Source: Steroidobacter sp.
GTDB lineage: Bacteria; Pseudomonadota; Gammaproteobacteria; Steroidobacterales; Steroidobacteraceae
DNA: 64,000 nt
Assembly: GCA_025929585.1 (NCBI GenBank)
Contig: JAICPY010000001.1
Span: 93,802-157,801 of the forward strand
Reading direction: 5' to 3'
Below the pieces are notes generated by a model. That model was not told the origin of the DNA, did not search any database, and saw only the letters and a program-made list of their open reading frames with translations. The translations under genes were made by a program, and so were the position numbers. The first letter of the stretch is position 1. Each line of letters begins with the position of its first letter. Positions 55,476-56,605 of this stretch are shown here, piece by piece.

Positions 55476-56096
55476 GTGCGCATGAGTCGGGTCATCCGAA
55501 ATCGCACATCACAGAACGCGCCAGGCGCAAACCGCTTGCGAATCGTGGGCGGCCGGTGGCGCGGCATGCGGATCGATTTCCCTGCAATCGGTGCGATCAG
55601 GCCGACGCCGGATCGCGTAAGAGAAACCTTGTTCAACTGGTTGCAAACACGAATCGTCGACGCCCGCTGTTTAGATTTATTCGCCGGCAGCGGTGCATTG
55701 GGGCTGGAAGCGTTGTCGCGCGGCGCGAGCCACGTCACGTTGGTCGATCGAGAACCCGAGATCGCGCGGCATCTCAAAGCGACACTCGCGCGCTTTCACG
55801 CGACGAACGCGGAAGTGCACACCAGTGACGCTTTGCGTTTTCTCGAGCGACCTTCGCAGCGGTTCGACATCGTTTTTCTCGATCCGCCCTTTGCCTCCGA
55901 CGTGCTGCCGGCCATTTGCGAATCTCTGAATCGAGGCTGGCTCAACCCGAGCGCCTCCATATACATAGAATGCTCATCGCGCTCCGCCTTGCCGCAGTTG
56001 CCAATGGACTGGGTCATATATCGCAGCAAGAGCGCGGGAGAGGTCGGCTATCATCTGCTGCGAGCCGAAGGCCAGATGGCGGAGAAACTTTCATGA
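55476..56096 (+). CDS. rsmD: 16S rRNA (guanine(966)-N(2))-methyltransferase RsmD
   Basis: RIVGGRWRGMRIDFP; RPTPDRVRETLFNWL; DLFAGSGALGLEALSRGA; FLDPPF. Confidence 0.94.
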   Translation: MRMSRVIRNRTSQNAPGANRLRIVGGRWRGMRIDFPAIGAIRPTPDRVRETLFNWLQTRIVDARCLDLFAGSGALGLEALSRGASHVTLVDREPEIARHLKATLARFHATNAEVHTSDALRFLERPSQRFDIVFLDPPFASDVLPAICESLNRGWLNPSASIYIECSSRSALPQLPMDWVIYRSKSAGEVGYHLLRAEGQMAEKLS

Positions 56097-56605
56097 CAGG
56101 TGCGATGTACCCGGGCACGTTCGATCCGATCACGAACGGGCATCATGATCTCGTCCGACGGGCGGCCGACATTTTCGAACACGTCGTGGTGGCTGTCGCG
56201 GCGAATCCTGGGAAAGCGCCATTGTTCTCGCTCGATGAGCGCGTCGAGCTCGCGCGCGAAGTGCTGAAAGACATTCCGAATGTGGTGATCACCGGCTACG
56301 CAGGATTGACGGTCGATTTTGCTCGTCAACACAACTTGAGAGTAATCGTGCGAGGCCTGCGAGCAGTGTCTGACTTCGAGTTCGAATTTCAGCTCGCGAC
56401 CATGAGCCGCCATCTATCCGACCAGGTCGACTACGTGTTCATGACGCCCACCGAGCAGTTCAACTTCATTTCATAGACGCTGGTACGCGAGATCGCAAGC
56501 TTGGGCGGCGATGTCTCGCAGTTCGTCAATCCCGCTGTGCAAGCAGCGCTGCAGCGCGCGTGGGCGAAACGGCATGCAGAGAAGCGGATGGCGGATAGGG
56601 GATAG
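56093..56605 (+). CDS. coaD: phosphopantetheine adenylyltransferase, reading frame interrupted by an in-frame TAG at 56474-56476 (annotated ORF ends 56476)
   Basis: AMYPGTFDPITNGHHDLVRRAA...[11 protein letters not shown][TAG][33 protein letters not shown]...; ATGA overlap with rsmD. Confidence 0.9.

Follow-up and report, generated by a model that had tools for sequence, protein, structure and literature searches.

A lone in-frame amber codon at a conserved serine of coaD in a Steroidobacter draft genome

The coaD locus and its internal stop codon

The window (the whole 64,000-nucleotide stretch of Steroidobacter sp. DNA that was analyzed) contains coaD, encoding phosphopantetheine adenylyltransferase (PPAT), immediately downstream of an intact rsmD, whose stop codon overlaps the coaD start. 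The gene order ftsX-ftsE-ftsY / rsmD-coaD / mutM is common to four congeners, and because of this conservation the locus is not a misjoin. The coding sequence, from its ATG at 56093, reads MTGAMYPGTFDP and is interrupted within its own frame (Table 1). A first-pass annotation of this DNA had reported a TAG in the coaD frame, and direct reading of the sequence agrees: 127 codons precede the internal TAG, which is codon 128, and 42 further codons lead to a second TAG at the normal end of the gene. The frame of this coaD therefore does not run unbroken across its ISSTxVRE motif and C-terminal helices.

Table 1. Features of the rsmD-coaD locus, in coordinates of the window.
Feature	Coordinates	Strand	Remarks
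rsmD, intact, upstream neighbor	55476..56096	+	
coaD (phosphopantetheine adenylyltransferase), internal TAG read through	56093..56605	+	4-base overlap with the end of rsmD
coaD N-terminal 127 codons, with the nucleotide-binding TFDPITNGH stretch	56093..56473	+	
In-frame TAG, codon 128; Ser in 107/109 homologues (Ser129 of E. coli and H. pylori)	56474..56476	+	alignment, PMC12784347
coaD downstream frame, intact, undecayed relative to congeners	56477..56602	+	
coaD normal end, also TAG	56603..56605	+	

Against TIGR01510, the product with Ser in place of the TAG reaches 186 bits (cut-off, 103), and the genome-wide search with this model returned coaD at 182.5 bits with one TAG inside. With the TAG counted as a residue, alignment of the product to the best solved CoaD structures needs no gaps, and identity to the G013 sequence is 0.88 and 0.84 in the 25-residue flanks on the two sides. 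Homology before and after the internal TAG is of equal strength, so the codon is not a frame or annotation mistake. The gene thus resembles CoaD/PPAT (TIGR01510) in its full-length homology before and after the TAG, its TFDPITNGH and ISxTLVRE motifs, and its adjacency to rsmD as in congeners; it differs in having a single TAG in frame where the second Ser of the ISST motif would be.

Conservation of the affected serine and of the downstream frame

Alignment offsets equate codon 128 with Ser129 of both E. coli and H. pylori CoaD, and of 109 homologues, 13 of them from congeners (Steroidobacter in the broad sense), 107 have Ser at this residue, 2 have Ala, and none has an internal stop, which bears out the earlier placement of the TAG at the second Ser of the conserved ISS motif. 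In E. coli PPAT, Ser128-130 touch the beta and gamma phosphates of ATP; the S129A variant of the H. pylori enzyme is still folded but has undetectable activity, and R133A is inactive as well (PMC12784347). Because S129A is inactive in H. pylori, truncation at this codon, or most other residues there, would be expected to destroy the enzyme. Two natural CoaD sequences (L150 and L151) nevertheless carry Ala at this position, in the contexts FISASLIKE and FISATLVRE.

The first-pass annotation had also proposed a comparison with relatives, and coaD is intact at the same place, with no internal stop, in 13 of 13 other congener genomes examined. Stops flagged "inside" the congener genes proved to be their ordinary C-terminal stops, and a conserved programmed stop was rejected. 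In an order-level sample of 396 genomes, there was no internal coaD stop among the top matches listed, and a scan of genome contigs found no record of the same species. Congeners encode this serine as TCG, TCC, or TCT, and TCG lies one substitution from TAG, so that a single C>A change suffices, as had been suggested from the sequence.

Before the TAG, pN/pS (Nei-Gojobori proportions) is 0.12 in pairs with this genome and 0.13 among congeners; after it, the values are 0.22 and 0.18, the post-TAG ratio resting on 30 codons, which are too few for a sharp test. Values near those of congeners on both sides of the TAG indicate that constraint acted on all of coaD until very recently, in keeping with the annotation's remark that the downstream frame shows no decay. 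An old pseudogene was rejected, given the similarity of post-TAG pN/pS to that of congeners and the lack of any additional lesion in the gene.

Termination at TAG and the origin of the codon

Of the 131 gene ends that congener homology supports, 40 (31%) are TAG, and the first-pass annotation's remark that other genes here end in TAG is correct. Some of these genes would gain long extensions by readthrough. RF1 is intact in the genome. We surveyed in-frame stops in 953 kb of this genome against 1.43 Mb of congener sequence. Among the 221 genes aligned (153 kb of conserved coding DNA), coaD alone has a credible in-frame stop, and no frameshifts were found. An additional stop call at C41 153131 falls in a short spurious open reading frame (ORF) antisense to ribosomal protein L28/L33 genes, and other apparent in-frame stops lie in antisense or N-terminally over-extended ORFs.

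Taken together with the comparisons above, these observations suggest that the TAG is probably a one-base consensus error in the draft assembly and that the true codon is most likely TCG (Ser). The organism would then have an ordinary, essential, single-copy coaD, the wrong base having come from shallow read coverage or from molecules that were damaged or in the minority. The TAG is without parallel among relatives, affects one base, and lies in the only PPAT gene found, the remainder of which is normally constrained; we infer a sense codon at codon 128 in the living population. The genome (5.13 Mb) looks like a metagenome assembly or bin, because it is in 297 contigs, is 97.6% complete, lacks several tRNAs, and yielded no detected 16S rRNA gene, although the same 16S search also missed 5 of 14 control genomes. 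Approximately 3.4% of random coding substitutions create a stop, and by our own arithmetic an error rate of roughly one per 100 kb should leave a 5.1-Mb genome with one or two false stops. The otherwise clean state of the assembly, whose 221 aligned genes hold no other credible stop or frameshift, argues against an error. On the other side, a lethal allele present as the population majority would need rescue, either by a Ser-inserting suppressor, which was not found, or by readthrough, which is unlikely to work because another residue would replace the catalytic serine.

Isolated, one base in extent, and not conserved, the TAG of this draft assembly is most likely an error rather than new biology. 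Among the options listed in the first-pass annotation, base-call error and very recent mutation remain, and error is the more likely of the two. A real TAG would offer a naturally occurring example of an essential enzyme that lies behind a stop; a literature search for coaD nonsense mutations found nothing. A single nonsense codon in a draft genome needs to be checked against reads before it is given a biological reading, even when the gene is essential and the frame on either side is perfect.

Possible suppression, readthrough, or replacement of CoaD

The best surviving alternative, which we nonetheless consider unlikely, is that the TAG is real and recent and that CoaD is made by means of a Ser-inserting, supD-like suppressor tRNA that is absent from the assembly or encoded on an unbinned element. 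Such a tRNA-Ser with a CUA anticodon would insert the very residue conserved at codon 128, and the coaD frame is intact past the TAG. Searches with Rfam and ARAGORN recovered 37 tRNAs plus one fragment from this genome, compared with 43 to 68 tRNA matches in congeners; tRNAs for His, Phe, Ile, Ala-TGC, Gly-TCC, Thr-GGT, and others were not found in the assembly. None of the 37 tRNAs found by these programs has a CUA anticodon, and as the set is incomplete, one more tRNA could be missing; the suppressor tRNA offered as an option by the annotation was not found, in a tRNA set known to have gaps. The usual parent of supD is tRNA-Ser(CGA), and this gene, like those of the other three Ser isoacceptors (GCT, TGA, and GGA), is present with a normal anticodon. 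A degenerate CUA-tRNA pattern gave 8 matches, fewer than the 35 for a reversed control, and these were rejected as suppressors since ARAGORN calls none of them a tRNA. Furthermore, efficient suppression would carry a cost, since 31% of homologue-supported genes terminate at TAG, and an in-frame TAG occurs in no other conserved gene sampled. The stronger proposition, that the TAG is real and fixed and that a free-living gammaproteobacterium makes an essential CoA enzyme only via natural Ser-inserting amber suppression at the active site, appears improbable to us; were natural suppression true, CoA supply would hinge on suppression efficiency.

The 38th tRNA match was also rejected as a suppressor, being a truncated extra copy of tRNA-Arg(ACG). 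This partial copy (L072, G000:C278:5500-6580, with the two matches at ~560-615 and 769-845) breaks off within the T arm; it is located ~200 bases upstream of the intact tRNA and looks like the trace of an integration or a partial duplication.

It is also improbable that the TAG is real and that basal or near-cognate UAG readthrough yields enough CoaD for growth. Near-cognate decoding of UAG inserts mostly Gln, Tyr, or Lys. These residues would stand at a catalytic position where Ala inactivates the H. pylori enzyme (PMC12784347). Many prokaryotic genes have been reported to contain in-frame stops maintained by purifying selection (Belinky et al. 2021, PMC7918605), and coaD shares with those cases a nonsense codon, an intact downstream frame, and low dN/dS; it differs in that its stop occurs in no related species (0 of 13 congeners) and in that the gene is single copy and essential elsewhere. 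The presence of an intact RF1 argues against readthrough, as does the RNA past the stop, where a search for a readthrough-promoting structure found folding no better than that of shuffles (z = 0.12). Translation of a split protein that restarts downstream was rejected: the first in-frame start past the TAG is a TTG at 56501, and a product begun there would be missing residues 128-136, among them the Arg that corresponds to H. pylori R133, whose replacement by Ala is inactivating (PMC12784347), so two working halves are unlikely.

More doubtful again is a true nonsense mutation in an organism that obtains CoA via an unrecognized PPAT or by salvage of dephospho-CoA or CoA precursors. CoaE (TIGR00152) is intact in the genome, so conversion of dephospho-CoA to CoA would still be possible, and the assembly is estimated to lack ~2.4% of the genome. 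However, the gene is undecayed, and a 5.1-Mb genome is unlike that of a dependent symbiont. The second PPAT gene elsewhere that the annotation had suggested was likewise not found in the 97.6%-complete genome, where the TIGR01510 search gave one place only and the PF01467 members are limited to coaD and two proteins that were rejected as a second PPAT once identified as NadD and a NadM-Nudix protein. The bifunctional NadM-Nudix protein (L064, G000:C156:1468-4635, at 652-1689 on the minus strand) adjoins an NAD synthetase gene, and NadD is encoded in the same genome.

Reassignment of TAG to an amino acid, for which the TAG at a Ser position of an essential gene could be cited and which the annotation had already judged unlikely, is refuted for practical purposes, as is genome-wide UAG recoding, by the use of TAG as a common terminator (40 of 131 gene ends), the absence of any other in-frame TAG from 153 kb of conserved coding DNA, the presence of RF1, and the failure to find a CUA tRNA.

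A second damaged coaD came to light in the same family. The G033 gene (L283, G033:C29:44050-44650, reverse strand) is missing ~22 residues with the frame kept, the Lys42 region among them, and reads AIVADLPNV where AIAANPxK...DLPNV is expected. As in the genome described here, coaD is single copy, the draft is rated highly complete (98%), and the lesion is expected to be inactivating, but in G033 it is an in-frame loss rather than a stop. The gap may be another draft-assembly lesion or a true deletion.
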